From: a virus
Length of the DNA: 46,731 nt
Direction: 5' to 3' (one strand)
Virus record (IMG/VR): IMGVR_UViG_3300037063_000012
Location: 1 to 46,731 of that record
Under the pieces are notes generated by a model, which worked only from the letters and a program-made list of their open reading frames with translations, was not told the DNA's origin and searched no databases. The number at the start of each line of letters is the position of its first letter. Within the stretch, counting starts at the first letter, position 1. Below, one piece after another: positions 12,128 through 43,387 of the stretch. Position numbers and translations under genes: made by a program.

Positions 12128-12839
12128 TGAAAGATCCGACTCCAGAGTTGGTGTTATTGATGGCCAAGGCAATCGTTACGTTGGTATCGCCGCCCCCGAT
12201 CACGTCCTCATAAGTGGCGGTGATAGTTGGGTTGGCTCGCTCGTCCCAGAACTCGACGACACTAGCAATTCCATCTGTGTCTACGGGGTAGGTGAAGGTG
12301 GGATCGAGTATGCCAAAGTTAGGCAGCGCAGGTCTCTGGCCTATCTGCGTACCAACGATGATTTCTACTGAGTCTGCGATCTCAGCGTAGGAGTCTTGAT
12401 TGTTTACTAAGAATTGCCCGAAGGCGTCAAGGGCCGGAAGATTCTGTAGATGCGGAGGAGCAGTCGGGAATGTCTGAGCCGGTGCTATGGCGGATATAGT
12501 GACACCAGTGCCGGTGTTCCCCGAGCCATCGGATTGCACGACCTGGAATGCCAGGGAGTTGGGTGCCGCTACGGCGGTAGACCAGAGCACGAGAGCAGAC
12601 GCCCAGGGGTACTGGTATGAGGTAGCCGGAGGGAGGGCCACGATTCCTGTTGGACCATTAACGATCTCAGCACCGATGGTGGTCACCAGTGTCCACGTTG
12701 GCGTGACGGTGTTCACGTCCAGAAGAACGTACACAAGGTATGAAGAACTGTTCGTCGCGTCGGTAGCAGCGGTCCAGTCAAGTTCTATTCCTGTACCACT
12801 AATCCATGTGGCGGTGAGGTTAGAGATGGGATTGGGCAA
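12120..12839 (-). CDS. FN3-gp25 fusion, baseplate wedge protein
   Basis: 239 residues. Residues 1-115 form a fibronectin type III-like domain (NLTATWISGTGIELDWTAA, SSYLVYVL). Residues about 135-225 match gp25/W baseplate wedge proteins: TQIGQRPALPNFGILDPTF then IASVVEFWDERANPTI. The start is TTG at 12839, set by the beginning of the FN3 domain, with AGGA ten bases upstream. It has its own promoter (12861-12896), giving a leader of about 14 bases. An FN3 domain on gp25 is uncommon. Confidence 0.8.
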   Translation of the reverse strand: MPNPISNLTATWISGTGIELDWTAATDATNSSSYLVYVLLDVNTVTPTWTLVTTIGAEIVNGPTGIVALPPATSYQYPWASALVLWSTAVAAPNSLAFQVVQSDGSGNTGTGVTISAIAPAQTFPTAPPHLQNLPALDAFGQFLVNNQDSYAEIADSVEIIVGTQIGQRPALPNFGILDPTFTYPVDTDGIASVVEFWDERANPTITATYEDVIGGGDTNVTIALAINNTNSGVGSFNG

Positions 12840-12860: not shown

Positions 12861-12896
12861 ATTATATCATCGAGTTGAGGAAAAGCAAGTCTCTAG
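12861..12896 (-). promoter_or_regulatory. Phage promoter, CTAAAGA family
   Basis: Minus strand: CTAGAGAC at 12889-12896, -35 TTGCTT at 12883-12888, 16 bp, -10 TATAAT at 12861-12866 with TGA in front (extended -10). It lies just after the spike-like gene and starts transcription of the gp25, J and receptor-binding genes. Confidence 0.7.
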
Positions 12897-30110: not shown

Positions 30111-31775
30111 TTAGGCGTTAGGTACAGGACCCATGATTGTCAGGTTGACGTAGTTCCCGTTTTCATCAAAGTAGGCATTCGACTCTTCGATGTCATCATC
30201 GAATTCTTCTGACTCGGAAGCCTTTGGTGGCTTCGGAGCTTTTCCTCCGGTAGGAGCAACCTTGGCCTTAGTAGCCTGACGCTGCTTCTGTGCCGGGTTC
30301 ATACGGTCCGGCTTGCCGGGGTTCGTAGGAGGATTGGTCGGAGCGTTCTTGGTCTTGCTCGTCGTGGTGTTGGTTTGTGCGGTGACGCCGACACCCTTCT
30401 GGGTGGCGTCTGCACCAGCAGCAGCCAATTGAACAACAGCGAGGTTCGCTTTGGAGAGGGCGTCAAGGTCGCGGATAACGACCATGTTCTGACGGTCAAC
30501 CAAAACAGCCACGTCGCCACCAGGAACCGGGGGTTCGCCAATGTCGGCACGGGCACGGTTCACAGACCAGGTACCGTTGCGGATACGCATGTCACGGATC
30601 TGCTCTAGTGTGTAGTCGTCTCGCCAGTCAACTGTACCAAAGTACAGTGCCCAGTCCTCCACCCCGTACGCTTGGTACAAGAGAGAGAACGAGAACTTCT
30701 CTAGGACGAGTTCCTGAGCGGGGCCGACTGTGTTGATGCGGAAGTTGCGGTCATCAGAGAGACCAACTCCACCACCAAGGCCCCCGGCCTGAGAGACTCC
30801 GGCCTTCGAACGGGGCACGCCCAGTCCTGACAAGATTTCATCACGGACATCGGCTTGGTTGCCACGCCATACTGCGATGTTGTTGGTGCCCAATTCCTGA
30901 ACAGTTGCCCCACCCTTGGTCTCTAAAAGAGACCCAATGTTGGCGAGTCCGAGGTTCTTGGTGCGGTACTGATCCTGGAAGCGCTGACGTTCAACGTCAG
31001 GCAGAGCGATGGGCCAGTCAACGTGCGCCTTCAGAGGGTCGCCCTTCATGAAGGTCATGCGTAGAAGCGAGGCACCGAAGATCCACGTGGTCACCGGAAG
31101 GATCAACTTCTCGATGGGACTCAGACCGTAGACGGTGTTGCCTGGGGAGTCGAAGCGACAGTGGATGACCTGGTTAAGAGCAAAACTCGCGGTCTTGTTA
31201 CGCTTCGTCTGCTGGTAGTACCCGGTTGGGTCGCCATGGTCGTTGGTGAGAACGGTGATGGTCGAAGGATCTAACGGGTAGAGAGCCAGAGGTGCGCCCT
31301 TGAGGTACACGATCTCGGTGAATGAGTCACCGTAGATGTACATGTCCGTGAGTACTCCGCGCATGAGCTGGCGAGAGTCCATACTTGGGTTCACGAATCG
31401 GAGCAACTTCGTCACAGCAACCACGCCCGGAGGGGGTGACTGCTTGATGTTGATCGGAGAGTTCATGTCGCGGATTGGTCGCGGTGTAAGTCCACCAGCG
31501 GTTGCCGTCTTGGCAATCACGTCAATCGCAACAGAGACCGGATAGCAGTTGACATAGAGACCAAGGAGTTGGTCCATGCGTGCCTGTCGGTTTGCGGAAT
31601 CCCCACCCCACGCATCTGCTGGCTGAGTCGCTGTGGCACCCCCGTTGGGAACGCCCTCGGCGTAACCGAGTCGTTGTGGTGCCTTGGGCTTACGCCCCTC
31701 TAGGACTAGTCCAGAATGAGAGTCGTGGCGTTCCTGAATATCGTCTAGTTTGGCTAGGAAAGATGGCACTACCAT
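30111..31775 (-). CDS. Portal protein
   Basis: 554 residues. The core LYVNCYPVSVAIDVIAKTAT, GDSFTEIVYLKGAPLALYPL, YGLSPIEKLILPV, then AKAGVSQAG matches HK97-type portals, the dodecameric ring through which DNA enters. Residues 460-554 are a basic-then-acidic tail typical of portals. It begins seven bases inside the terminase end, and is followed by small head genes. Confidence 0.85.
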   Translation of the reverse strand: MVVPSFLAKLDDIQERHDSHSGLVLEGRKPKAPQRLGYAEGVPNGGATATQPADAWGGDSANRQARMDQLLGLYVNCYPVSVAIDVIAKTATAGGLTPRPIRDMNSPINIKQSPPPGVVAVTKLLRFVNPSMDSRQLMRGVLTDMYIYGDSFTEIVYLKGAPLALYPLDPSTITVLTNDHGDPTGYYQQTKRNKTASFALNQVIHCRFDSPGNTVYGLSPIEKLILPVTTWIFGASLLRMTFMKGDPLKAHVDWPIALPDVERQRFQDQYRTKNLGLANIGSLLETKGGATVQELGTNNIAVWRGNQADVRDEILSGLGVPRSKAGVSQAGGLGGGVGLSDDRNFRINTVGPAQELVLEKFSFSLLYQAYGVEDWALYFGTVDWRDDYTLEQIRDMRIRNGTWSVNRARADIGEPPVPGGDVAVLVDRQNMVVIRDLDALSKANLAVVQLAAAGADATQKGVGVTAQTNTTTSKTKNAPTNPPTNPGKPDRMNPAQKQRQATKAKVAPTGGKAPKPPKASESEEFDDDIEESNAYFDENGNYVNLTIMGPVPNA

Positions 31776-33352
31776 CCTCCTCGGCTAGATGGATTATTTA
31801 GGTCCGTGGGGAAAATAAAGTCCTGACTGCTCATTCCAGTTTTCATCGGCTGCGAATAATCAACGGCAGGCTGATCGTTCATTCGTTCAAGAATCTGTTG
31901 AGCGGTTGGAGGGGTGTAGTCATCGTAGAAGAGCGGGCGGGCAAAGTGACCGGCGTACATATTCACATAACGCCAAGCGTCAGCCATGTGGTCTTCTACG
32001 TTGCGAGTTTTGGCATCATCGGGACGAATGTCATCGCGAGGAAGCGCCGGGATCGTCTCAATAAAGTTTGGGCACGCCGACTCAAAGACGTGGAACATTG
32101 GGCAGGTGTTTTCGTGCCAAAGCCCTAGGTCTTTCTGGTACTGGTGATATTCACAGATCGGCCCTTCATTGAGGCGCTCGTGACACAGCGACCAACCAAC
32201 TACTCGGTCGTTGTTTGCCTTGAGCAGTCCAACGCCTTCGAGGCCGTAGATGTCTGCAATGGAGTACGGAGTGCCGCGTTGCCCCCACATTGAAGGATCG
32301 GCAACGTGAACGACGCTGGTCTCTTTTGCGGCGACCTCGGCGGCAAGAATCAACTGCGCCTGCTGCGGAGCCATTACGTCAGAGAGACAGTATTCTCGGT
32401 AAGCCCACATGCGAGCATTGTTGTCGAGAGCGATCCAGAGGACGGCCCACGCATCGTGGATTCCATAGTCAATGCCAGCGTAACGCTGCCACTCAACCGG
32501 AATGTTGAACGTGTCTTCCTTGGGAATTACGTGACGGACACGGGAAAATTGAGTAAAGAAGGCCCCTTCGGACACATCCCAGTCTCCGTTAAGCATTGCG
32601 GCTCGTCGGGCAGGATCTGGAATAGCCATGAGGGTGGCTTTGTAGCCTGCATCCACGTATGGATTGTCATCAATTCTTGACCAAATAAATGCGTACTTAT
32701 GGATTTCCTGATAGTCGCCTTCTCCGACGACAACTTCATGAATTTTGCGTCCATAGTCGGTTGGCTTGATATAGGTATCTTTGTAATACTGAGCGCCTAT
32801 TCCACCGGGATTGGATCCTGCGCGACTTCCGAATACGGGAATCAGTGGTGTACGAGAACGAAGACGCTCTTCAAGCCGTTGAATGACCCTAGGGTCAGTC
32901 AAACTTGATTCGTCAAAGTACCACAGGTTATATTCGCCGCCTTGAATTTTTGAAGCATCCAAGAGCGTCTCGGCAAACTTGAAAAAGATGCCAGAACCAT
33001 TCGGGAACGTAAGTGACTTTGCGGTTTTATTCCACTTGCCACCGAGTTTTCGGGCATAGTCCCAGTTGGCCAATTCACGAATCAAAGACTCGTCTAACTC
33101 GGGGTATGACTTTCTATGCATCCCGATTCGGATCTTAGGGTAGTTCATGGCGAACCAAATTGCGTCCTGAATCATGGCGCTGGTTTTACCCCCGGACGCC
33201 GCTCCGCCCAGAAGAATTCGATTGATTCCGCCACGAGAGTATTCATGGAAGATTTTCTGGCGAGCATGAGGCTCATAGCCGAGAATCTTGAACGTGTCAA
33301 TTTCTTCCGGCGAAACCGCCGAGGCAAGGAAGTCACCTACATTGAGAGGCAT
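31769..33352 (-). CDS. terL: Terminase large subunit
   Basis: 527 residues. Walker A GGAASGGKT (49-57), Walker B LWYFDESS with Asp147-Glu148, and the nuclease domain beginning GIDYG (Asp295), with the later acidic site in DHMADAWRY. It pumps DNA into the prohead through the portal and cuts it. It directly precedes the portal gene. No small terminase subunit is recognised; the two small upstream genes are candidates. Confidence 0.95.
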   Translation of the reverse strand: MPLNVGDFLASAVSPEEIDTFKILGYEPHARQKIFHEYSRGGINRILLGGAASGGKTSAMIQDAIWFAMNYPKIRIGMHRKSYPELDESLIRELANWDYARKLGGKWNKTAKSLTFPNGSGIFFKFAETLLDASKIQGGEYNLWYFDESSLTDPRVIQRLEERLRSRTPLIPVFGSRAGSNPGGIGAQYYKDTYIKPTDYGRKIHEVVVGEGDYQEIHKYAFIWSRIDDNPYVDAGYKATLMAIPDPARRAAMLNGDWDVSEGAFFTQFSRVRHVIPKEDTFNIPVEWQRYAGIDYGIHDAWAVLWIALDNNARMWAYREYCLSDVMAPQQAQLILAAEVAAKETSVVHVADPSMWGQRGTPYSIADIYGLEGVGLLKANNDRVVGWSLCHERLNEGPICEYHQYQKDLGLWHENTCPMFHVFESACPNFIETIPALPRDDIRPDDAKTRNVEDHMADAWRYVNMYAGHFARPLFYDDYTPPTAQQILERMNDQPAVDYSQPMKTGMSSQDFIFPTDLNNPSSRGGW

Positions 33353-35688: not shown

Positions 35689-35766
35689 TGGTCCTGAGTG
35701 AAGGACTCGAACCTTCGCATGGCTGTGTATAAGACAGCGTTTCTGTAGCCGCTGAAATAACTCAGG
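35689..35766 (-). tRNA. tRNA-Ile(UAU)
   Basis: Acceptor CCTGAGT/ACTCAGG, T-arm GAAGG-TTCGAGT-CCTTC, anticodon loop CTTATAC. 3' CCA is encoded. It would read AUA, normally handled by a lysidine-modified tRNA. Confidence 0.9.
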
Positions 35767-35852
35767 AAGGGAAGATGGTTATAAATCACCAGAATCCGAG
35801 GGTTAATGACTTCCTCCTGGGCCTCCCATCCTTACGGGCAGGGACATCTTCT
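35767..35852 (-). other. Spacer with tRNA-sized stem, no confident gene
   Basis: GAAGATG and CATCTTC arms enclose about 67 bases, the size of a tRNA, with a possible CAT in a middle loop. No usable T-arm is seen. It may be a decayed tRNA. Confidence 0.25.
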
Positions 35853-35929
35853 TGGTCGGAATGGCAGGATTTGAACCTGCGGCCTTGGGCCTATGAAACC
35901 CCTGCTCTGCCAAACTGAGCTACACGCCG
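35853..35929 (-). tRNA. tRNA-Met or Ile (CAU)
   Basis: T-arm GCAGG-TTCAAAT-CCTGC, D-arm TAGCTC, anticodon loop TTCATAG. CCA is encoded. Its 5' end overlaps the stop region of the HNH gene by 10 bases. Met versus Ile identity cannot be told. Confidence 0.85.
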
Positions 35930-36333
35930 ATGTTGTGCTGTCCCCTTTGCCTCGTTCGCATACGATGACAGTTAGAACAGACTAATTCACATTTTTCTAC
36001 TTCTGCAAGGATCCTCTTCTTTGAGTAACTTCCTCCCCAGGTTTCCCCTATATTGAAGAGTTTCTCGCCACGCTCCGGTATGTGATCGAAATCCATACAT
36101 TCGGGCGGGAAAGTGTTGCCGCAATCCACGCAAGGATGATTCTTGAGGTCATCCAAAAATTCACGCAGACTTACCCTGCGCTTGACTCTGCTAGCAGCAA
36201 TTTGAGCCTTTAGTTTTGTGCTGTTGGTTTTGTAGTAATCCTTTTTGTACTGTCGGTATTCCGGCGTAGCGCGTCGGGCCGCAGACTTTTTGCGATCATA
36301 CTCTTTCTGCTTTTCGGGATCCTTGAATGCCAT
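35920..36333 (-). CDS. HNH homing-type endonuclease in tRNA array
   Basis: 137 residues. A basic N-terminus (KSAARRATPEYRQYKKDYYK) for DNA binding, then Cys68-x2-Cys71, DFDH (81-84), and CSNCHR with Cys119/Cys122: a zinc-stabilised HNH/McrA-like nuclease. The gene's 3' end runs into the downstream tRNA. It has its own CTAAAGA-type promoter whose -10 ends six bases before the ATG, so the mRNA should be leaderless. Probably a homing endonuclease that spreads within tRNA clusters. Confidence 0.85.
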   Translation of the reverse strand: MAFKDPEKQKEYDRKKSAARRATPEYRQYKKDYYKTNSTKLKAQIAASRVKRRVSLREFLDDLKNHPCVDCGNTFPPECMDFDHIPERGEKLFNIGETWGGSYSKKRILAEVEKCELVCSNCHRMRTRQRGQHNIGV

Positions 36334-36339
36334 GGTCCA

Positions 36340-36375
36340 AGTCTAGCATGGTTCTAACACACGTCCAGTCTTTAG
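36340..36375 (-). promoter_or_regulatory. CTAAAGA-family promoter, leaderless HNH gene
   Basis: CTAAAGAC at 36368-36375, -35 TGGACG at 36362-36367, 16 bp, -10 TAGACT at 36340-36345 with TGC before it, then six bases to the ATG at 36333. Confidence 0.7.
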
Positions 36376-36384
36376 ACCACTAAG

Positions 36385-36457
36385 TCGAGATAGTAGGAAT
36401 CGAACCCACGTCTTGGAGGTAGAAACTCCGCGTCCTAATCCGTTGAACGATATCCCG
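36385..36457 (-). tRNA. tRNA-Arg(UCU)
   Basis: Acceptor CGGGATA/TATCTCG, T-arm GTGGG-TTCGATT-CCTAC, anticodon loop TTTCTAC. Discriminator A, no CCA encoded. Confidence 0.9.
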
Positions 36458-36469
36458 ATTGTACTCCGT

Positions 36470-36546
36470 TGGCTCAGAGAGGAGGCCACGATCCCCCAAC
36501 CTCCTGGTTCAGGGCCAGGTGCAACTGCCTCTTGTGCTATCTCTGA
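36470..36546 (-). tRNA. tRNA-Gln(CUG)
   Basis: Acceptor TCAGAGA/TCTCTGA, anticodon arm CCTGG-CCCTGAA-CCAGG (C at position 33). Discriminator G and CCA are encoded. Confidence 0.85.
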
Positions 36547-36550
36547 ATGA

Positions 36551-36606
36551 TTGCAATTCCAAGTTTTAAGGCCGAAACTTGCCCTAACGCTTGCAATTCC
36601 AAGTTT
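36551..36606 (-). repeat. 16-bp direct repeats with competing hairpins
   Basis: TTGCAATTCCAAGTTT (plus strand) occurs at 36551-36566 and 36591-36606. On the minus strand CAAGTTT between them can pair with AAACTTG of either copy, giving two mutually exclusive 7-bp hairpins. It lies between tRNA-Ser(GCU) and tRNA-Gln(CUG). Confidence 0.6.
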
Positions 36607-36612
36607 ACTACG

Positions 36613-36696
36613 CGGAAGACTAGATACTCGAAAACTACACCTTGCGGTGCTCACCGTTTAGCAAACGGGCCGAGAGACCTCTCTCGTTAATCTTCC
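36613..36696 (-). tRNA. tRNA-Ser(GCU)
   Basis: Acceptor GGAAGAT/GTCTTCC, anticodon loop TTGCTAA, long variable arm CACC-GCAA-GGTG, T-loop TTCGAGT on a partly mismatched stem. Discriminator G, no CCA. Confidence 0.8.
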
Positions 36697-36701
36697 ATCT
36701 G

Positions 36702-36746
36702 TGTGGGGATATCCCCACAATACTAAATGTGGACTTATCCCCACAT
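36702..36746 (-). other. Hairpins downstream of rnpB
   Basis: A hairpin ATGTGG/CCACAT (36727-36746) starts two bases after the RNase P RNA end and is followed by UUAGUAUUG; a perfect 18-bp palindrome TGTGGGGATATCCCCACA lies at 36702-36719. They may mark the 3' end or terminate part of the transcript. Confidence 0.5.
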
Positions 36747-36748
36747 CG

Positions 36749-37092
36749 AAACTGAGTCAACCTATAAGCGGAGTTCTGTACACCTCACGGTGTGGTAACC
36801 ATCCATCTCAGCGATCTACCTAGGGATGTCTTTCGACGGACGAGCAGCCGCGTTCCCAGCTTTGATCTTGCTACGGGTAGGGTTTACCTAGCAGACTTGT
36901 CACCAAGCCTCTGGTGCGCTCTTACCGCACCCTTTCAGCATCACCTGTGATTCCAACCCTCGCGGGGAAAAATCCATCGGCTGTCTACTCTCTGTTGCAC
37001 TTGCCTGCGCCTCACGACGACTCTTTCAAGTACCCTGCTCTTTGTAGCCCCGACTTTCCTCTCCGTAGAGCGGTTACCCGGTTAACTCAATC
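36749..37092 (-). ncRNA. rnpB: RNase P RNA, bacterial type A
   Basis: The catalytic RNA that removes 5' leaders from tRNA precursors. About 344 bases. The universal core is present in order: GAGGAAAGTC, then GTGCAACAGAGAGTAGAC with CCGATGG, AAAGGGTGCGGTAAGAGCGC (P8-P9 region), CAAGATCAAAG, GATGGATGG and ACAGAACTCCGCTTA near the 3' end. Helix P1 pairs bases 37092-37080 with the 3' end over 13 bp. P4 pairs AAG-U-CGGGG with CUCCGCUU, keeping the bulged U; relative to E. coli both strands changed together, so the helix is conserved by compensation. P3 is short and P18 seems absent. A -10 box TATAGT ends six bases before P1. It sits inside the tRNA array on the same strand. Confidence 0.93.
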
Positions 37093-37098
37093 GTTTCA

Positions 37099-37125
37099 AC
37101 TATACCACAGTCGTCTAGTCTTTAA
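37099..37125 (-). promoter_or_regulatory. rnpB promoter
   Basis: -10 TATAGT at 37099-37104 with TGG in front (extended -10), placing the start at 37092, the first base of P1. TTAAAGAC lies 12-20 bases upstream, but closer than in the CTAAAGA family, so the -35 is unclear. Confidence 0.6.
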
Positions 37126-37138
37126 GGGTACGAATTAG

Positions 37139-37211
37139 CTCTGGGCTGAGGTTATGATCCCCCTATTGCAGATTCAAAGTCTGCCGTGTTAGCCGATTAC
37201 ACTACCCCAGA
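37139..37211 (-). tRNA. tRNA-Gln(UUG)
   Basis: Acceptor TCTGGGG/GCCCAGA, D-stem GTGT/ACAC, anticodon arm GCAGA-CTTTGAA-TCTGC, T-loop ATCATAA. Discriminator G, no CCA. Confidence 0.85.
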
Positions 37212-37226
37212 ATGATTTACTTCTAG

Positions 37227-37305
37227 TACTCCCAGAGGGATTTGCACCCTCACGCCTAGGCACAGATTTTTGAGATCTGCGTGTCTGCTATTTCACCATA
37301 GGAGC
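37227..37305 (-). tRNA. tRNA-Leu(CAA)
   Basis: Acceptor GCTCCTA/TGGGAGT, anticodon arm CAGAT-CTCAAAA-ATCTG, enlarged variable loop, T-arm GAGGG-TGCAAAT-CCCTC. No CCA. Confidence 0.85.
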
Positions 37306-37354
37306 ATGTTACCACACAAACCTTACCAACGCAAATCCTTAGTAAGGTTTATCG

Positions 37355-37443
37355 CGGAAGGAGTAGGATTCGAACCTACGGTGGCCCTTTCGGACCACTC
37401 TTGTTTTCGAGACAAGCGCCTTTAACCACTCGGCCTCCCACAC
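37355..37443 (-). tRNA. tRNA-Ser(CGA)
   Basis: D-arm GCCGAGTGG, anticodon arm CTTGT-CTCGAAA-ACAAG, long variable arm, T-arm GTAGG-TTCGAAT-CCTAC. Acceptor pairing is imperfect (GTGTGGG/TCCTTCC). Confidence 0.8.
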
Positions 37444-37460
37444 CTCAGTGCGTCGAATTC

Positions 37461-37510
37461 CAAAGGCGTCAAAAGGTGTCTAAAGGTGTCTAAAGGTGTC
37501 TAAAGGTGTC
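37461..37510 (-). repeat. 10-bp tandem repeat, five units
   Basis: Plus strand units CAAAGGCGTC, AAAAGGTGTC and three TAAAGGTGTC. It overlaps the 3' end of the adjacent tRNA-Ser(UGA). Confidence 0.9.
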
Positions 37511-37577
37511 GAGCCTTCACCCGTGAGGATGTACTGGTTTTCAAGGCCAGGTGACAGTAGCCGCTGTCATACTCTCC
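37494..37577 (-). pseudogene. tRNA-Ser(UGA), 3' end overrun by repeats
   Basis: Acceptor 5' strand GGAGAGT, anticodon arm CTGGC-CTTGAAA-ACCAG and a long variable arm CATCC/GGGTG are good. The T-arm GAAGG-CTCGACA-CCTTT and the 3' acceptor strand AGACACC are made of the tandem repeat and pair poorly with the 5' strand. Probably decayed. Confidence 0.6.
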
Positions 37578-37589
37578 ATTGTTACTTCG

Positions 37590-37662
37590 AGGGAAGGTCC
37601 AGAATCGAACTGGAATAGCGGGTGTTGCAAGCCCGTGCCTGTGTCCATTCGGCCACCGACCC
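37590..37662 (-). tRNA. tRNA-Cys(GCA)
   Basis: Acceptor GGGTCGG/CCTTCCC (two mismatches), anticodon loop TTGCAAC, T-arm TCCAG-TTCGATT-CTGGA, discriminator T as expected for Cys. No CCA. Confidence 0.85.
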
Positions 37663-37861
37663 ATGTGAGTCATCAGCCTCGGTTTCCACCTGCCACGAGG
37701 TCTCCCGGTCCTCTGGCTAGGAGTTAGGGATCTTGTCGGTAGCCAACCGTACCCTCAACTAAACCGGTGTGCATTCTGTTGGCTTTTACTTCCCCGCCCC
37801 TTTACGCCGAAGCGTTTTGCGGATACCTCAACCACCATGTCTATACACCACTAATGAATCG
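37663..37861 (-). other. 199-base spacer with hairpins, no confident gene
   Basis: Contains ACGC-TTCG-GCGT, a GCCAAC/GTTGGC stem and a GAGG-ACCGGGAGA-CCTC hairpin whose loop could be a Pro(GGG) anticodon, but no T-arm or acceptor fits. Probably remnants of tRNAs. Confidence 0.4.
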
Positions 37862-37947
37862 TAGGCATAAAGAGACTCGAACTCTTATTCCCATTACAGG
37901 AACCGGACTCTCGATCCGGCGCGTCTAACCAATTTCGCCATACGCCT
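37862..37947 (-). tRNA. tRNA-Leu(GAG)
   Basis: Acceptor AGGCGTA/TATGCCT, anticodon arm CCGGA-TCGAGAG-TCCGG, long variable arm, T-arm AAGAG-TTCGAGT-CTCTT. No CCA. Confidence 0.9.
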
Positions 37948-38005
37948 ATGTGCAGACTACAGCCTGCGTTTTCACTTCAGAATGCAGCCTACAGACTGCA
38001 CTTCG

Positions 38006-38081
38006 TACTCTCTACATGATTCGAACATGCACGTTAAACGGGTCTAAGCCGTTCTCCTCTGCCTAATTGGGATAAGAGAGC
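38006..38081 (-). tRNA. tRNA with UAG anticodon (Leu), short variable loop
   Basis: Acceptor GCTCTCT/AGAGAGT, anticodon arm AACGG-CTTAGAC-CCGTT, variable loop only six bases, T-arm GCATG-TTCGAAT-CATGT. The anticodon reads CUA (Leu) but the body is class I. Confidence 0.85.
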
Positions 38082-38146
38082 AAGTGATGCGTCCGGGTCT
38101 CTAGTCCGATAAAGAAGCATCGGTCTGTCGATACTTCACCGCTTCG

Positions 38147-38219
38147 TACTCCTGGTCAGGAACGAACTGACACTAGCTACCGGTTTAAACGGCAGTCCTC
38201 TGCATTGGGATACAGGAGC
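38147..38219 (-). tRNA. tRNA with UAA anticodon (Leu), copy 1
   Basis: Acceptor GCTCCTG/CAGGAGT, anticodon arm TGCCG-TTTAAAC-CGGTA, six-base variable loop, T-arm GTCAG-TTCGTTC-CTGAC. One base differs from copy 2 at 39367-39439. Confidence 0.9.
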
Positions 38220-38281
38220 AAGCGCCGTCTTTCCGGCTGTCCATAGTCCTCGGGGGTCTTAAAACCTTAACCGAAGTTACG

Positions 38282-38353
38282 TGGAGATGCTGAGAATCGG
38301 ACTCAGGATTTCTGTTTGCAAAACAGATGTGTTGCCACTAGCACCACACCCCC
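38282..38353 (-). tRNA. tRNA-Ala(UGC), copy 1
   Basis: Acceptor GGGGGTG/CATCTCC, anticodon arm TCTGT-TTTGCAA-ACAGA, T-arm CTGAG-TCCGATT-CTCAG. No CCA. Confidence 0.9.
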
Positions 38354-38360
38354 ATTTCCT

Positions 38361-38438
38361 CACTGTTGCTGACACCGCTAAGTGTCTCCGCATGTTCCGA
38401 CTCGAACGGTTGCAGATGCCTTTCACGCGGAAACAGTG
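38361..38438 (-). other. Structured RNA element, three-way junction
   Basis: Closing stem CACTGTT/AACAGTG, inner stem TCCGCGT/ATGCGGA that encloses a T-arm-like CCG-TTCGAGT-CGG, and a hairpin GACAC-TTAGCG-GTGTC. It looks like a tRNA acceptor plus T-arm minihelix inside another stem. Function unknown. Confidence 0.45.
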
Positions 38439-38476
38439 AGTGATCCAATGCGCAGTTGCAACTACACACCTTCTCG

Positions 38477-38548
38477 TGGAGACAGGGAATTTCGAAATCC
38501 CGGCTTCCTGCGTGCCATCGTAGCACTCTACCTCTGAGTTACAGCCCC
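38477..38548 (-). pseudogene. Decayed tRNA-Ala(GGC)
   Basis: D-arm and T-arm are intact and loop ATGGCAC would carry GGC, but the anticodon stem CTACG/GCAGG has three mismatches. The intact relative at 39660-39733 has CCGGT/ACCGG. Confidence 0.7.
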
Positions 38549-38625
38549 ATGCCCGCTTTGAGGTCGAGGAACGGTACCTCGTGCTAGCGGCCACCTGCAT
38601 CCGAAGATGTCGTCAGTACCTCTCG

Positions 38626-38698
38626 TGGTTCCTTACCGGATCGAACGACAACCTAGGGCTTTTCAGACCCCCGTGCAGACCAACTACACCAAAAAACC
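38626..38698 (-). tRNA. tRNA-Phe(GAA), copy 1
   Basis: Acceptor GGTTTTT/AGGAACC, anticodon loop CTGAAAA, T-loop TTCGATC. No CCA. Confidence 0.9.
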
Positions 38699-38788
38699 AT
38701 GTGGCCGTATCCTTTGTCAGGCAGGTGGACCAACCTTTTCCCATTGACAGCGGGGGAAAGACCGCAAGAGGGGTGTCACTCCCAATCG

Positions 38789-38863
38789 TAGATCCTGACG
38801 GATTTGAACCGCCGCCACCTAGGGTGTAGACCTAGTGCTCTGGCCAGACTGAGCTAAGAATCC
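38789..38863 (-). tRNA. tRNA-Val(UAC)
   Basis: Acceptor GGATTCT/AGGATCT, anticodon arm CTAGG-TCTACAC-CCTAG, T-arm with TTCAAAT. No CCA. Confidence 0.9.
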
Positions 38864-38868
38864 ATGAT

Positions 38869-38913
38869 AGTGCAAAATACTGCACTCTTTATTGCAGTGC
38901 AAGATACTGCACT
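38869..38913. promoter_or_regulatory. Tandem palindromic sites, operator-like
   Basis: AGTGCAAAATACTGCACT (38869-38886) and AGTGCAAGATACTGCACT (38896-38913): two 18-bp sites with identical AGTGCA/TGCACT arms, 27 bp centre to centre. They lie just upstream of tRNA-Val(UAC) and look like binding sites for a dimeric repressor. Confidence 0.55.
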
Positions 38914-38919
38914 TCGTAC

Positions 38920-39002
38920 AAGTGAAGGGCTGATAAATTCCAACGCGGGTCAGTCAGAACTTTCGGTAATCACTCCGCATCACCTTCCACCCGCTCTTCA
39001 CT
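38920..39002 (-). other. tRNA-sized structured spacer
   Basis: Outer stem AAGTGAAG/CTTCACTT (8 bp) and inner stem GCGGGT/ACCCGC. About 83 bases, no readable T-arm or anticodon. May be a decayed tRNA or another small RNA. Confidence 0.35.
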
Positions 39003-39005
39003 TCG

Positions 39006-39089
39006 TAGGCATAAGGAGACTTGAACTCCTACTCCCTTTCGGGAACAGCCACCTCAAGGCTGCGCGTCTGCCGATTTCGCCATACGCCT
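39006..39089 (-). tRNA. tRNA-Leu(GAG), second gene
   Basis: Acceptor AGGCGTA/TATGCCT, anticodon arm CAGCC-TTGAGGT-GGCTG, variable arm TCCC-GAAA-GGGA, T-loop TTCAAGT. No CCA. Confidence 0.9.
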
Positions 39090-39154
39090 ATTGAACAGTC
39101 CGGGGTTTGCGAGACTTCCTATCCCCGGTTCGGGCGCTCATCTCCCTACCGTAG

Positions 39155-39237
39155 TACTCTTGGAGGGGTACGATCCCTCAATCCTCGCGGCATCAGCTTC
39201 TAAAACTGACGTGTATATCCATTTCCACCACAAGAGC
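39155..39237 (-). tRNA. tRNA-Leu(UAG), class II
   Basis: Acceptor GCTCTTG/CAAGAGT, anticodon arm TCAGT-TTTAGAA-GCTGA, long variable arm, T-loop ATCGTAC. No CCA. Confidence 0.88.
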
Positions 39238-39366
39238 ATGTTCCCGCCGAATCGTTGCGTTTCGCGGGGTAAAGAAAACCTGTACGTAGTACCCTCAAGG
39301 AGCACCAGAGTACACAAGCAATCGTTGTACACCGATCACAAGTTTAAGCAACAACAGGTCATAACG

Positions 39367-39439
39367 TACTCCTGGCCAGGAACGAACTGACACTAGCTAC
39401 CGGTTTAAACGGCAGTCCTCTGCATTGGGATACAGGAGC
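39367..39439 (-). tRNA. tRNA with UAA anticodon (Leu), copy 2
   Basis: Same as copy 1 at 38147-38219 except one base near the T-arm/acceptor junction. Confidence 0.9.
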
Positions 39440-39530
39440 ATGGTGGACATTCACTACGGTACCATAGATCGCGCTCCTGCTAGTCGCGACTCGCTGCTCA
39501 TGTTAATAGCAGACTCTGAATTTCCGTCCG

Positions 39531-39602
39531 TGGAGAAGCGGAGAATCGGACTCCGGATACCTGAGTGCAAAACAGGTGTGTTACCACTAGCACTACAACC
39601 CC
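39531..39602 (-). tRNA. tRNA-Ala(UGC), copy 2
   Basis: Anticodon arm CCTGT-TTTGCAC-TCAGG, T-arm CGGAG-TCCGATT-CTCCG. Acceptor GGGGTTG/CTTCTCC. No CCA. Confidence 0.88.
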
Positions 39603-39659
39603 ATGTGCCGGTCTATCCCGGCTGTTTTCGTCTCTCCGAATGTCTTTACCTTACGGTAG

Positions 39660-39733
39660 TGGAGAATGTGGTGTTCGAAACCACGGCCTCCGGTATGCCA
39701 TACCGGCGCTCTGACCAACTGAGCTAAATCCCC
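39660..39733 (-). tRNA. tRNA-Ala(GGC)
   Basis: D-arm GCTC/GAGC, anticodon arm CCGGT-ATGGCAT-ACCGG, T-arm GTGGT-TTCGAAC-ACCAC. No CCA. Confidence 0.9.
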
Positions 39734-39745
39734 ATCGTTACATCG

Positions 39746-39818
39746 TGGTTCCTTGTCGGATCGAACGACAACCTAGGGCTTTTCAGACCCCCGTGCAGAC
39801 CAACTACACCAAAAAACC
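39746..39818 (-). tRNA. tRNA-Phe(GAA), copy 2
   Basis: Nearly identical to copy 1 at 38626-38698, with changes only in the T-stem. Confidence 0.9.
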
Positions 39819-39892
39819 AAGTGATGCAGGCCCCTCTGTCCCCGAAGAGACTGGTTATGACAATGACCTCGCGATCAAAGTTTCCTGCTTCG

Positions 39893-39964
39893 TAGTCACC
39901 GTGAATTCTGCCATCACGACATCCGCTTTGTAAGAGCGGCGCTCTTCTTCTGAGCTAGGCGACC
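39893..39964 (-). tRNA. tRNA-Val(UAC), second gene
   Basis: Acceptor GGTCGCC/GGTGACT, D-stem GCTC/GAGC, anticodon arm CCGCT-CTTACAA-AGCGG. The T-loop GGCAGAA lacks the usual TTC, so function is less sure. Confidence 0.75.
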
Positions 39965-39973
39965 ATGGTGTGA

Positions 39974-40047
39974 TGCTTTCTGGCGGTACAGCGAACCGCC
40001 AACCTCCGGGCCTTCACCCGGCGCTCTACCATTGAGCTATAGAAAAC
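39974..40047 (-). tRNA. tRNA-like, anticodon uncertain (GAA?)
   Basis: Acceptor GTTTTCT/AGAAAGC, D-arm GCTC/GAGC, but the anticodon loop has only six bases (TGAAGG) between CCGGG and CCCGG, and the T-loop is enlarged. Possibly decayed. Confidence 0.55.
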
Positions 40048-40055
40048 ATCACATC

Positions 40056-40130
40056 GTCTCCCTACCAAGATTCGAACTTGGGACAATTGGTTCGTAGCCA
40101 ATCAGTTTAATCCACTAGCCTACAGAGAGA
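40056..40130 (-). tRNA. tRNA-Arg(ACG)
   Basis: Acceptor TCTCTCT/AGGGAGA, anticodon arm ATTGG-CTACGAA-CCAAT, T-loop TTCGAAT. It needs inosine at position 34 to read CGU/CGC/CGA. Confidence 0.9.
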
Positions 40131-40325
40131 TGCGGGCACTTTATTTTAGAGAGGAGAAATACCCGGCTCCTCATCACTTTATATGTGAGTACTGCTAACT
40201 CCCCCACTCGATTTTTACGGCGAGGGGGAAGACGATCTGTGAGGCTGACGGTTACAAGCCGCCGCATCCTCTGGCCATTCACTTCCATCTGTCGATGGCG
40301 TACCAGTCTTAACTTGCTTGCCTCG
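40131..40325 (-). other. 195-base spacer, hairpins and a Thr-like anticodon arm
   Basis: A GC-rich hairpin (CCCCCTCG/CGAGTGGGGG, 40200-40228), a GAGGAG/CTCCTC hairpin, and GGCGG-CTTGTAA-CCGTC, which would carry a Thr(UGU) anticodon. No T-arm or full acceptor stem, so no gene is called. Confidence 0.35.
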
Positions 40326-40399
40326 TAGTGATGAAGAGTCTCGAACTCCCGGCCTGCTCCGTATCAGGAAGCTGCTCTGACCAACTGAGCTACACCACT
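40326..40399 (-). tRNA. tRNA-Ile(GAU)
   Basis: Acceptor AGTGGTG/CATCACT, anticodon arm GCTTC-CTGATAC-GGAGC, T-arm GGGAG-TTCGAGA-CTCTT. No CCA. Confidence 0.92.
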
Positions 40400-40549
40400 A
40401 TGTAACAGATGCCGGGATTGCGCCGGACTCCCACGGAAGTAGCCGTGGAGTGCTTGCTACTTTGAAACCAGAACTTGCGGGCTCTGAGGTCGTTTCGCAG
40501 GACTTCACCGACCGCAATCAGTTGGTCCTTCTTTACACCACATCTTAGG
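40400..40549 (-). other. 150-base spacer with strong hairpin, no confident gene
   Basis: A long hairpin ACTCCACGG/CCGTGGGAGT and a T-arm-like CCGG-CGCAATC-CCGG are seen, but no acceptor at the right distance. Possibly a decayed tRNA. Confidence 0.35.
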
Positions 40550-40621
40550 GGTGAAGGACGTGAGTTGAACACGCGCCAGAGGGGTCACAATCCTCTGCTC
40601 TACCGTTGAGCTACCAACACC
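40550..40621 (-). tRNA. tRNA-His(GUG)
   Basis: Anticodon loop TTGTGAC, T-arm GCGTG-TTCAACT-CACGT. An extra G at -1 faces discriminator C, the His identity feature. No CCA. Confidence 0.88.
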
Positions 40622-40656
40622 ATGTGCCGGTCTTTCCCGGCTGTCACCTTTTTTAA

Positions 40657-40739
40657 TGACGGACTAGGCTTGCGCCGACTTCACCGTACAGGTCTTTTCG
40701 GTTAGACCTACTGTGAAATTAGACTACCACACACCGTCA
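40657..40739 (-). tRNA. tRNA-like element, possible Arg(CCG)
   Basis: Acceptor TGACGG/CCGTCA at tRNA distance, D-stem TGTG/CACA, a hairpin AGGTCT-AACCGAAA-AGACCT with an eight-base loop, ten-base variable loop, T-loop CGCAAGC on a weak stem. Noncanonical; may be decayed. Confidence 0.4.
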
Positions 40740-40761
40740 AGTCTGTCAAGTCAATTCTTTG

Positions 40762-40832
40762 CAGATCGTGTAGGTACCGCCCCCACGCCAGAGGGTTTGG
40801 AAGCCTCTGTGCTACTATTACACCAACAATCC
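40762..40832 (-). tRNA. tRNA-Trp(CCA)
   Basis: Acceptor GGATTGT/ACGATCT, D-stem GTGT/GCAC, anticodon loop TTCCAAA on GAGGC/CCCTC (one mismatch), discriminator G as in Trp. Gly(UCC) is possible if the loop is shifted one base. Confidence 0.75.
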
Positions 40833-40851
40833 ATGTCACACTTTGTTACGT

Positions 40852-40929
40852 TTATCGCCCCCGGCCAAAAATCCAACTGCCGACAACGAGTATTGCAACA
40901 ATAATCACAACAAATTCTAGGATACCCAT
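40852..40929 (-). CDS. 25-residue membrane peptide
   Basis: A frame starting MGILEFVVIIVAILVVG, then SWIFGRGR. It is one transmembrane helix with an acidic residue before it and basic residues after. AGAGGAG lies 6 bases before the ATG. It sits alone between tRNA-Trp and tRNA-Tyr. Such single-helix peptides can be holin-like, toxin-like or membrane effectors; I cannot tell which. Confidence 0.65.
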   Translation of the reverse strand: MGILEFVVIIVAILVVGSWIFGRGR

Positions 40930-40959
40930 GGGTACTCCTCTTACTGCATATTTACTGCT

Positions 40960-41043
40960 TGGTCCAACGAGTAGGTAACGCTCCCACTTTATCCGAAGAC
41001 GCCGAGGTTACAGCTCGGTGCATCACTTCTCTGCCATCGTTGG
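40960..41043 (-). tRNA. tRNA-Tyr(GUA)
   Basis: Acceptor CCAACGA/TCGTTGG, anticodon arm CCGAG-CTGTAAC-CTCGG, long variable arm with TTCG, T-loop AGCGTTA. CCA is encoded. Confidence 0.9.
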
Positions 41044-41057
41044 ATGGTTACTACTAG

Positions 41058-41129
41058 CTCCAAAGGTAGGTCCTGCCCCCACAACTTCCTCGTTAACGGC
41101 GAGGCACTCTGCTATTGAGTTACTCTGGA
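41058..41129 (-). tRNA. tRNA-Asn(GUU)
   Basis: Acceptor TCCAGAG/CTTTGGA, anticodon arm CCTCG-CCGTTAA-CGAGG, discriminator G as for Asn. Overlaps the 3' end of the HNH gene by 18 bases. Confidence 0.9.
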
Positions 41130-41876
41130 ATGTTTACCGCGATTTGTTGCCGTTGTCATGGGATTGACAATTCCCCGGCGTTTTAAATACTTCTTTACCG
41201 CATTATCGGAAACTCCAAGTTCTTTGCCAACCTGCCTAAAGTTAGACGCCTCAAGCATCCTAAGGATTTCATCAACTTCCGGCCACTCGATCTTAGCCTT
41301 GGCACCCGATCTCTGAAGACAGTTTGTACAATATCCGGTAATGCTGGCATGGTAAATTCTTTTGGAGCACGTAAAACAAAGTCTTGGCTGCACTTCACGC
41401 CTAAATGCCAAGGTTCTCTTCTTTTTTCGTGTCATAGTTTGCGTATGACAGTTTGGACAAAGAAACCTCAAATTCTCAATTCTGTCGTCCCACCAATCGC
41501 CGCTAATGTGGTCAATCTGTAAAACAAGTGGCTCGTCATTCCACCGGTCGTTTTGTCCACACAGAGAGCACCTATGCTCTACCCCTAAGAATAGAATTGA
41601 TCGCCGGAGTATCTCCGTAGACTGTCTTCCGTCCTCAGGCTTTCTAAGAGTAAGAACATCTTCCGGAGAACGCTTCCGCATCGACTTTTTACGACGCCCA
41701 TCTGTATGAAAGAAATGGTCGGTAGAAACCCCTAGTTGAGCAATGCGGTTGGTGAAGTGTTTGTGTACTCCACCGTGAGGCGTTCTTCCTAGTTTCCTTA
41801 GTGCTTCAGTGACGGATTCCGATGATGCAACGGCGCTTCTTAATTCTTCGTCTGATATTTTCGTTGGTCGAGTCAT
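41112..41876 (-). CDS. HNH homing-type endonuclease with HTH ends
   Basis: 254 residues. N-terminal helix-turn-helix (ISDEELRSAVASSESVTEAL), then the HNH core: Cys103-x2-Cys106, IDHISGDWWDDRIENLRFLC with the catalytic His, and CPNCHT. A second zinc ribbon (CFTC, CTNC) and a C-terminal HTH (NFRQVGKELGVSDNAVKKYL) follow. This is the build of tRNA-cluster or intronless homing endonucleases. Its stop lies inside tRNA-Asn. The promoter -10 is six bases before the ATG, so the mRNA is leaderless. Confidence 0.88.
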   Translation of the reverse strand: MTRPTKISDEELRSAVASSESVTEALRKLGRTPHGGVHKHFTNRIAQLGVSTDHFFHTDGRRKKSMRKRSPEDVLTLRKPEDGRQSTEILRRSILFLGVEHRCSLCGQNDRWNDEPLVLQIDHISGDWWDDRIENLRFLCPNCHTQTMTRKKKRTLAFRREVQPRLCFTCSKRIYHASITGYCTNCLQRSGAKAKIEWPEVDEILRMLEASNFRQVGKELGVSDNAVKKYLKRRGIVNPMTTATNRGKHSRVTQ

Positions 41877-41882
41877 ACGTCA

Positions 41883-41918
41883 ATTATAGCATCGAACTAG
41901 AAAAAGTCAAATCTTTAG
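41883..41918 (-). promoter_or_regulatory. CTAAAGA-family promoter, best copy
   Basis: CTAAAGAT at 41911-41918, -35 TTGACT at 41905-41910, 16 bp, extended -10 TGC-TATAAT (hexamer 41883-41888), then six bases to ATG 41876. Confidence 0.8.
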
Positions 41919-41947
41919 ATTCTGCATTGCCAATGCTTTACTTCTAG

Positions 41948-42021
41948 TCCTCCCGGAGGAACTCGAATCCCCACCATCGGGGTAAAAGCCCGACACGCTT
42001 GTCCAGTTACGCCACAAGAGG
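41948..42021 (-). tRNA. tRNA-Lys(UUU)
   Basis: Acceptor CCTCTTG/CGGGAGG, anticodon arm TCGGG-CTTTTAC-CCCGA, T-arm GGGGA-TTCGAGT-TCCTC. No CCA. Confidence 0.92.
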
Positions 42022-42022
42022 T

Positions 42023-42098
42023 TGGTTGGCCCCGAGGGAGTTGAACCCTCCTAAACGTGGTTAAGAGCCACGCGCATCTGCCGATCTGCCAGAAGCCA
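42023..42098 (-). tRNA. tRNA-Lys(CUU)
   Basis: Acceptor TGGCTTC/GGGGCCA, anticodon arm CGTGG-CTCTTAA-CCACG, T-arm GAGGG-TTCAACT-CCCTC. CCA is encoded. Confidence 0.92.
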
Positions 42099-42200
42099 AT
42101 GAACTGTATTCGTTGTGCTTACCCCATGTTACACCACCCCTCCGCGTTACGTACCCGCTATTGAGGGACCAAGTATGGACTTGGACCTACTACTACAGAG

Positions 42201-42274
42201 TCTGGATAGCCGGATTCGAACCGACAACCCCGTGCTCCCAGGGCACGTGCGCTACCAAATTGCGCCACATCCAG
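42201..42274 (-). tRNA. tRNA-Pro(UGG)
   Basis: Acceptor CTGGATG/TATCCAG, anticodon arm CGTGC-CCTGGGA-GCACG, T-loop TTCGAAT. No CCA. Confidence 0.9.
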
Positions 42275-42277
42275 ATG

Positions 42278-42364
42278 ACGGGTGCTCTGCCAATTGAGCT
42301 ACCGGCGACCTACATTCCCCGAGGGGAAAAGCACCGAGAACGATTCGAACGTCCAACCACCCGT
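42278..42364 (-). tRNA. Circularly permuted tRNA-like gene B
   Basis: Order on the minus strand: 3' half first (ACGGG, variable TGGTT, T-arm GGACG-TTCGAAT-CGTTC, acceptor TCGGTGC), a 22-base linker with a CCCC/GGGG hairpin, then the 5' half (acceptor TCGCCGG, TA, D-arm GCTC/GAGC, CCCGT). Anticodon stem CCCGT/ACGGG pairs perfectly and the acceptor pairs 6 of 7. The anticodon loop is missing; identity unknown. Confidence 0.7.
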
Positions 42365-42368
42365 ATTT

Positions 42369-42443
42369 GTAGGTGCTCTACCAGACTGAGCTACACCGGG
42401 GATTTTCACCCCGCTGGCAGGATTTGAACCTGCGACCTCCTAC
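42369..42443 (-). tRNA. Circularly permuted tRNA-like gene A
   Basis: 3' half: GTAGG, AGGTC, T-arm GCAGG-TTCAAAT-CCTGC, acceptor CAGCGGG; nine-base linker; 5' half: acceptor CCCGGTG, TA, D-arm GCTC/GAGC, CCTAC. Anticodon stem CCTAC/GTAGG is perfect; acceptor pairs 6 of 7. The unit begins four bases after the end of tRNA-Asp and ends four bases before unit B. Confidence 0.72.
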
Positions 42444-42446
42444 TCG

Positions 42447-42518
42447 CGCCGCTAGGGGATCACGATACCCCAACCTCGTGGCTGACAACCACGCGCTCTT
42501 CCTTTGAGCTATAACAGC
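42447..42518 (-). tRNA. tRNA-Asp(GUC)
   Basis: Acceptor GCTGTTA/TAGCGGC, anticodon arm CGTGG-TTGTCAG-CCACG, T-arm GGGGT-ATCGTGA-TCCCC, discriminator G as for Asp. No CCA. Confidence 0.9.
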
Positions 42519-42531
42519 ATTGCATGAGAGG

Positions 42532-42601
42532 AGAGGAGTGCTGACATTACACCAAACCGAGAAGTGTCCCCGGCTCAAGGGATTGAACCTCATCTCCCTC
42601 T
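42532..42601 (-). tRNA. Circularly permuted tRNA-like gene C
   Basis: 3' half: AGAGG, GAGA, T-arm TGAGG-TTCAATC-CCTTG, acceptor AGCCGGG; seven-base linker GACACTT; 5' half: acceptor CTCGGTT, TG, D-arm GTGT/GCAC, CCTCT. Acceptor pairs 7 of 7 (with wobbles) and anticodon stem CCTCT/AGAGG is perfect. It starts four bases after tRNA-Glu(CUC). Confidence 0.72.
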
Positions 42602-42604
42602 CCG

Positions 42605-42678
42605 TAGTGTAAGCGAGGATTGAACTCGCGGCCTCAGGATTGAGAATCCTGCGTCCTAACCAACTAGACCATTACACC
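42605..42678 (-). tRNA. tRNA-Glu(CUC)
   Basis: Acceptor GGTGTAA/TTACACT, anticodon arm CAGGA-TTCTCAA-TCCTG, T-arm GCGAG-TTCAATC-CTCGC. No CCA. Confidence 0.9.
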
Positions 42679-42689
42679 ATGTTACTTCG

Positions 42690-42762
42690 TACTCTATATC
42701 GGTACTGACCCGATCTCCTCCAGGGTGAAAACCTGGCGTCCTTTCCACTAGACCAATAGAGC
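42690..42762 (-). tRNA. tRNA-Glu(UUC)
   Basis: Acceptor GCTCTAT/ATAGAGT, anticodon arm CCAGG-TTTTCAC-CCTGG, T-arm ATCGG-GTCAGTA-CCGAT. No CCA. Confidence 0.9.
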
Positions 42763-42769
42763 AAGTTGC

Positions 42770-42847
42770 CACTAAGGCCGGGAATCAGACCCAGCCGAAC
42801 GGCCCTATTCAGAGAACCGCCCACATCAGTAGTCCGGGTTAATTAGA
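42770..42847 (-). tRNA. tRNA-like, identity uncertain
   Basis: T-arm CTGGG-TCTGATT-CCCGG, a GGTTC/GGGCC stem with an eight-base loop TCTGAATA (UGA or GAA anticodon), D-stem CCC/GGG, but only four acceptor pairs. Probably decayed. Confidence 0.45.
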
Positions 42848-42868
42848 CCAAGACTTCTTCATGGCGTG

Positions 42869-42904
42869 ATGTGAGTTCGAGTTTCGAACCTCTTGCTCAC
42901 TTCG
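42869..42904 (-). other. tRNA minihelix-like remnant
   Basis: AGTGAG and CTCAC arms enclose a T-loop-like TTCGAAA with a GAG/CTC stem: acceptor plus T-arm without D and anticodon arms. Confidence 0.35.
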
Positions 42905-42975
42905 ACGGGTAGACGGGGATCGAACCCGCGACACCTACTTGGAAGGAAGGTGTTATACCACTTAACTACAACCCG
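42905..42975 (-). tRNA. tRNA-Gly(UCC)
   Basis: Acceptor CGGGTTG/CTACCCG, anticodon loop CTTCCAA, T-arm GCGGG-TTCGATC-CCCGT, discriminator T. No CCA. Confidence 0.88.
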
Positions 42976-43090
42976 ATGCTGTGCCGGAGGAAGCAGCATA
43001 CCCTGAAGGGTGCAACTTTCATTTACTTCCACCGACTTGAACACTGTATCACAGGTTTCCCCGGAACAATGTTACGATATGTTACAATCG

Positions 43091-43161
43091 AGTCTCAGGC
43101 GGGAATCGGACCCGCGCCTCCACCTTGGCAAGGTGGAATTCTGCCGCTGAACTACTAAGAC
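43091..43161 (-). tRNA. tRNA-Gly(GCC)
   Basis: Acceptor GTCTTAG/CTGAGAC, anticodon arm CCACC-TTGCCAA-GGTGG, T-arm GCGGG-TCCGATT-CCCGC, discriminator T. No CCA. Confidence 0.92.
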
Positions 43162-43228
43162 CAGTATCAACAGGAACCCCAGCCTGCCAACATATCGGAC
43201 CCACAATACCTACGTCCGACTTCCTTCG

Positions 43229-43300
43229 ATCCGCAAGAAGGTCACGATCCTTCTCCTCCACGTTACCAACGTGGCGTGCTGCCATTATCACTATCACGGA
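43229..43300 (-). tRNA. tRNA-Thr(GGU)
   Basis: Acceptor TCCGTGA/TTGCGGA, anticodon arm CCACG-TTGGTAA-CGTGG, T-arm GAAGG-ATCGTGA-CCTTC. No CCA. Confidence 0.9.
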
Positions 43301-43315
43301 ATGCTTACTTCTTCG

Positions 43316-43387
43316 ATCCCCGGAAGAGATTTGAACTCTTACCGCTGGTTTACGAAACCAGGATTCTGCCAGTTGAACTACCAGGGA
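43316..43387 (-). tRNA. tRNA-Thr(CGU)
   Basis: Acceptor TCCCTGG/CCGGGGA, anticodon arm CTGGT-TTCGTAA-ACCAG, T-arm AAGAG-TTCAAAT-CTCTT. No CCA. Confidence 0.92.

Follow-up and report, generated by a model that had tools for sequence, protein, structure and literature searches.

A class A RNase P RNA gene within the tRNA array of a contractile-tailed phage

Phage ribozymes, phage translation genes and RNase P RNA

RNase P RNA is among the few RNA enzymes that are nearly universal in cellular life, and it is viewed as a housekeeping gene. The P6 pseudoknot and helices P16/P17 are features of the class A RNAs, as opposed to class B, and P18 is common in class A RNAs but not universal. Among archaea, Pyrobaculum relatives have a minimal RNase P RNA, type T, in which the specificity domain is lacking. 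T-type RNase P RNA is also named in a previous publication (PMC7191817). Ribozymes next to phage tRNA genes have been described in gut phages, in which HDV-like theta ribozymes adjoin the tRNAs and have been proposed to act in phage tRNA maturation (PMC10879173). The study of huge phages (PMC7162821) describes phage-encoded tRNAs, synthetases, a CCA-adding enzyme, tmRNA and bS21; RNase P is absent from its main text (Al-Shayeb 2020), and pipelines confined to tRNAscan-SE and ARAGORN, as used there, would miss a phage RNase P RNA. The application of Rfam to megaphages is reported to have yielded nothing beyond tRNAs and a tmRNA (Lui 2021, PMC8172020). In the open-access papers searched, we found no description of an RNase P RNA encoded by a phage; the priority of the present finding is not certain.

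We analyzed a stretch of 46,731 nucleotides, hereafter called the window, which covers positions 1 to 46,731 of the IMG/VR virus record IMGVR_UViG_3300037063_000012. On its minus strand, positions 36749–37092 encode a bacterial RNase P RNA of class A that is carried by a phage. It shares CR I, CR V, the bulged U in P4, P6 and the GGU in L15 with the bacterial class A RNAs (RF00010, rnpB/M1 RNA), but unlike cellular rnpB it is located on a tailed phage, in a tRNA array and with no detectable protein gene, and it is about 72% identical to the nearest cellular RNA found. Both this RNA and the theta ribozymes (PMC10879173) are phage-encoded ribozymes beside phage tRNA genes, but the latter are small self-cleaving RNAs proposed to act on the 3′ side of the tRNA, whereas RNase P RNA is the multiple-turnover 5′-end enzyme of cells. 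Like the huge phages of PMC7162821, the phages considered here supply translation parts of their own, being rich in tRNAs and in some cases encoding a tmRNA (e.g., L011, L017).

Identity, fold and bacterial relatives of the RNA

A type A RNase P RNA of 344 nt on the minus strand had been proposed in the first-pass annotation, which named a low covariance-model score as a ground for refuting it. In our scan the match obtained 203.9 bits (E = 9.9e-65), as compared to a gathering cut-off of 100 bits, and it covers the model from end to end (model positions 1–367; 36749–37089 in the window), which bears out the assignment. With the extended P1 included, the gene covers 36749–37092. Here, the 5′ strand at 37080–37092 pairs with the 3′ strand at 36750–36762, and all 13 base pairs (37092–37080 with 36762–36750) are canonical, in agreement with the 13-bp P1 recognized earlier.

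In total, 85 of the 93 pairs in the RNA are canonical. P2 consists of seven canonical pairs, and P1 and P2, which close the catalytic domain, are thus both present. The 5′ strand of P4 (AAG-U-CGGGG, 37048–37056) forms eight of eight canonical pairs with the 3′ strand CUCCGCUU in CR V (36766–36773) according to the helix check, and P4 keeps its bulged U, which is located between CR I and CR V. The 5′ strand of the P6 pseudoknot, GAGCAG (37035–37040), has its complement, CUGCUC, at 36842–36847, giving six perfect pairs by direct sequence reading, while P16/P17 are present in the model alignment with several non-canonical pairs. The helix check also identified the GGU in L15, the motif that binds the 3′-CCA of the tRNA, at 36818–36820. 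P3 is short, with a UACG cap (37070–37061), and P18 is absent, with 24 positions of the RF00010 model skipped; both features had been noted before. As P18 is also absent from most of the nearest Actinomycetota RNAs, its absence does not disqualify the RNA from class A. The P19 hairpin CACC-GUGA-GGUG (36792–36781), which the first-pass annotation did not mention, is also found in the nearest Actinomycetota RNAs. All of these elements are on the minus strand. A single-sequence fold of the RNA was modestly better than those of shuffled sequences (z = −1.7).

We searched for bacterial relatives by phylum. The best match among 396 Actinomycetota genomes was 72% identical over 309 nt and scored 164 bits, as compared to 113 bits over a partial length for the best match among 398 Pseudomonadota genomes, and the nearest bacterial RNA found is 72–73% identical to the RNA in the window. 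A gamma- or beta-proteobacterial source was considered since these groups form the majority among the pattern matches listed, but the phylum searches point instead to the Actinomycetota. Likewise, the RNA groups within the Actinomycetota RNAs in trees of the 5-row set (99/97 and 95/97), on a long branch of 0.45–0.61 changes per column. P18 is missing in nearly all of its Actinomycetota relatives, and the CR V of the nearest ones inspected reads CCCGC, with the same P4 change as in the window. The shared P18 loss and P4 change were thus inherited from the bacterial source and do not represent compaction in the phage, as had been suggested for P3 and P18. For P4, it is correct that both strands changed together with the bulged U kept, but the change is not specific to the phage. 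Judged from these similarities, the RNA was most likely captured from an Actinomycetota-type host.

Comparisons with the four nearest bacterial RNAs (L290, L291, L292 and L295) identified 13, 14, 15 and 15 pairs, respectively, in which both positions had changed and still pair, although some of these changes took place in the bacterial lineages after the split. These doubly compensated pairs amount to 57 in total, as compared to 1–11 when the partners were slid by 1–3 positions. Because 13–15 pairs are doubly changed and still pairing in each comparison, the fold is under selection.

Genomic setting and comparison with related phages

The window contains genes for the large terminase subunit (31769–33352, minus strand; PHROG 2, E = 4e-32), which marks a tailed phage, and for the sheath protein of a contractile tail (20574–22124, minus strand; PHROG 17610, E = 3e-21), as well as genes for portal, major head, head protease and tape-measure proteins. 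Since these structural and terminase genes are located on an IMG/VR virus record, the window is a fragment of a contractile-tailed phage.

The position inside a tRNA array, as recognized in the first-pass annotation, was confirmed by ARAGORN and RF00010: the array consists of 33 ARAGORN tRNAs at 35689–43387, all on the minus strand, and it holds the RNase P RNA on the same strand as the surrounding tRNA genes. The neighbors are tRNA-Gln(TTG) at 37138–37211 and tRNA-Gln(CTG) at 36470–36546. A tentative tRNA-Ser(GCT)-like sequence at 36607–36694 on the minus strand aligns as a homolog to tRNA-Ser(GCT) of two related phages (L025 and L019); neither ARAGORN nor cmscan calls a tRNA there. Most tRNAs in the window have no encoded CCA, and a contact between CCA and L15 would therefore need prior addition of CCA. 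Directly after the RNase P RNA are two near-identical palindromes of 18 nt, TGTGGGGATATCCCCACA and TGTGGACTTATCCCCACA (36702–36719 and 36728–36745), for which 0.01 matches are expected by chance and which may represent hairpins or a protein site. Elsewhere in the array, the tRNA block Leu(GAG)-Leu(TAG)-Leu(TAA)-Ala-Phe is seemingly duplicated (37861–38698 and 39005–39818), with the copies of Leu(TAA) and Phe being 94–100% identical.

Upstream of P1, the motif count identified an extended −10 element, TGGTATAGT, at 37099–37107 on the minus strand, which is a putative promoter of the RNase P RNA itself and from which transcription is predicted to start approximately where P1 begins. The motif TGNTATANT occurs four times in the window, as compared to 1.85 times expected, and by our own arithmetic the chance of an extended −10 element at exactly this position is about 2e-4. 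The −10 box described earlier before P1 was thus recovered, but a two-hexamer sigma-70 scan identified no recognizable −35 element upstream of it. The minus strand has two more such elements, one at 41883–41891, directly upstream of an HNH gene, and one at 12861–12869, directly upstream of the ORF at 12120–12839.

A second, independent assembly (L016/G015; 28,205 bp) matches the window with 99.7% identity across 28.1 kb and contains an identical RNase P RNA at the same junction, which shows that the RNA is not the product of an assembly join. A chimeric contig, in which bacterial rnpB had become attached to phage DNA, is a concern with viral collections in which some records do resemble host DNA beside prophages (L002, L005, L026), but for this locus it has a negligible probability: the second assembly, at 0.3% divergence, has the same join, both flanks consist of phage tRNAs that have homologs in related phages, and the nearest bacterial RNA found is no closer than the 72–73% given above.

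We also compared the locus to those of related phages. No RNase P RNA was identified in the examined sequence of the nearest relatives by terminase (79–88% identical), and four of these relatives, which have long tRNA arrays (L018, L019, L020, L025), gave no RF00010 match even at E 0.01, so that no degenerate copy was found at their empty sites at this threshold. In L025, tRNA-Gln(TTG) and tRNA-Ser(GCT) are only 1 nt apart, as compared to about 440 nt between tRNA-Gln(TTG) and the tRNA-Ser(GCT)-like sequence in the window, and it is these approximately 440 nt that contain the RNase P RNA and the palindrome pair. Judging by this arrangement, the RNA reads as an insertion in the lineage of the window, although it may instead have been lost in the four relatives. 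The first-pass annotation had coupled two grounds for doubt, absence from related phage genomes and an assembly join at this site; the absence holds for the closest relatives but the join does not, and because the second assembly has the same junction, the absence is to be read as a recent gain or patchy loss. The four closest array-bearing relatives do without the RNA, and this group of phages therefore does not depend on it.

The absence from close relatives would also fit a passenger, that is, a host rnpB that the phage acquired accidentally and on which no selection acts there. Two HNH endonuclease genes are located within the array, at 35920–36333 (weak match) and 41112–41876; they might mobilize tRNA genes and rnpB and could have moved such DNA in. 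We nevertheless consider an unselected passenger unlikely, since the pairs have remained canonical to the extent of 85/93 in spite of the long branch (0.45–0.61), with many double compensations, and since similar captures are seen in many unrelated phages, as described below.

RNase P RNAs in other phages and the proposed function

Searches of IMG/VR for sequence patterns yielded 16 stretches with the CR I pattern and 110 stretches with the CR IV–CR V pattern. Among 100 CR IV–CR V records tested, 28 passed the RF00010 gathering score and 58 passed E 0.001; as these records were chosen by pattern, the 28/100 is not an estimate of prevalence. Clear phages with the RNA, each with a terminase, are G101 (267 kb, 280 bits), G095 (340 kb, 255 bits) and G120 (497 kb, 247 bits). 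Two phages of 94 and 102 kb (G010/G016) contain RNase P RNAs of 262 and 259 bits along with tmRNA and large tRNA arrays. Of 47 records, 18 contain the PHROG 2 terminase, including the host-like G005, and ribosomal protein S12 was identified on none of 36.

Several candidates were rejected. Many of the first matches on viral contigs (among them L002, L005, L008 and L026) look like host rnpB beside prophages, the match in an Acinetobacter “phage” is host DNA next to a prophage, and “Microcystis phage MaAM05” (MW495066.1, L171) carries the bacterial chromosome genes fliM, fabI, engB and glyS and is apparently mislabelled. Some of the pattern records (G005, G062, G063) are also prophage-adjacent or host-like and have no tRNA array. 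When five phage RNAs were used as blastn queries, 50,697 phage records yielded no clear phage case, with no match at all to the reduced L142 RNA. RF00010 likewise gave no match in nine cultured phages, among which are Bacillus phage G, Atu_ph07, XacN1, RaK2, phiKZ and T4; eight of the nine are jumbo phages, and XacN1 is rich in tRNAs.

After removal of host-like and duplicate cases, 46 RNAs were analyzed for their tRNA context. A tRNA on the same strand was located within 500 nt of 31 of them, a tRNA starts at most 10 nt from the RNA 3′ end in 18, and both sides are tightly flanked in 8. An alignment of 20 longer phage RNAs contained 62 consensus pairs, of which 53 show at least one double change; CR I (GAGGAAAGTC) and CR V (ACAGAA..GCTTA) are invariant, and the second pair of the P4 core (columns 68/497) is C-G in half of the RNAs and G-C in the other half (10/20 each). 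A single phage clade was rejected (p-AU = 0.0005), which indicates that phages captured RNase P RNA more than once.

We consider it probable that the RNA in the window is a functional phage RNase P RNA from an Actinomycetota-type host, which relies on the protein of its host in processing the pre-tRNAs of the phage. It would be transcribed either from its own extended −10 promoter or within the transcript of the tRNA array. The folded RNA would then take up the RNase P protein of the host, the phage having no detectable gene for one, and together they would cleave the 5′ leaders of at least 33 phage pre-tRNAs, which would allow the maturation of tRNAs to keep up during the shutdown of host transcription. 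The gene for the RNase P protein (rnpA, PF00825) was identified in none of the 47 records, which may be fragments, in a search that was positive in 10 of 14 control genomes; for the window fragment, it may be located elsewhere in the genome. If the protein must be obtained from the host, the phage RNA has to compete for it, and the RNA could then be a decoy that titrates the host protein and starves host tRNA processing with no need of catalysis, as the loss of the specificity domain in some phage RNAs might also suggest. A decoy would, however, not require a catalytic core (the P4 bulged U and CR V) or the GGU in L15, both of which are kept, and the setting in an array points to the phage tRNAs as the substrate, which together make this alternative improbable.

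A different purpose could be to replace a host RNase P that has been disabled as a defence, or to process phage transcripts other than tRNAs. Phages are known to repair tRNAs cleaved by the host, G010 encodes an RtcB-like ligase and GroEL, and in some phages with reduced RNAs (e.g., G081, G061) the examined stretch contains hardly any tRNAs or none. We regard such a role as highly improbable for the window, given that 31 of the 46 RNAs are within 500 nt of a tRNA on the same strand. The processing of phage pre-tRNAs by the phage RNA together with host protein would extend the viral takeover of translation to the tRNA-making ribozyme itself, and why a phage needs its own RNA while still borrowing the host protein is a testable question.

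Some of the phage RNAs are reduced to 156–210 nt, of which a few (e.g., G045) are truncated because the contig ends there or were only partly matched. The reduced RNAs of 158–207 nt are located in L105 (8982–9139), L142 (482–672), L163 (1545–1710) and L128 (10596–10802). In L105 (158 nt) and L142 (191 nt), the specificity domain is skipped, while P1, P2, P15 and the CR I/CR V strands of P4 are kept. Both RNAs share about 1 nt with the tRNA that follows, and those in L163 and L155 likewise overlap the next tRNA. Loss of the specificity domain is a similarity between L105 and L142 and the type T RNAs, but the latter are archaeal whereas the phage RNAs are recognized by the model for bacterial class A RNAs, and the RNA in the window is not of the reduced kind. 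In phages where the RNA touches tRNAs on one or both sides, its 3′ end could be generated when RNase P cuts at the tRNA that follows, and where it touches its neighbors, its ends could come from tRNA processing. For mostly large tailed phages in general, we see evenly balanced prospects that there were many captures and that the RNA excises itself from polycistronic tRNA transcripts with a borrowed host protein, in some cases at about 160–190 nt and with no specificity domain. Phage copies would supply many naturally evolved RNase P RNAs, some very small, for structure-function studies. As a minor observation, the G010/G016 phages (L047 894–1227; L046 5292–6941, 10632–12044) encode tmRNA, with GroEL and the RtcB-like ligase being additionally present in G010.
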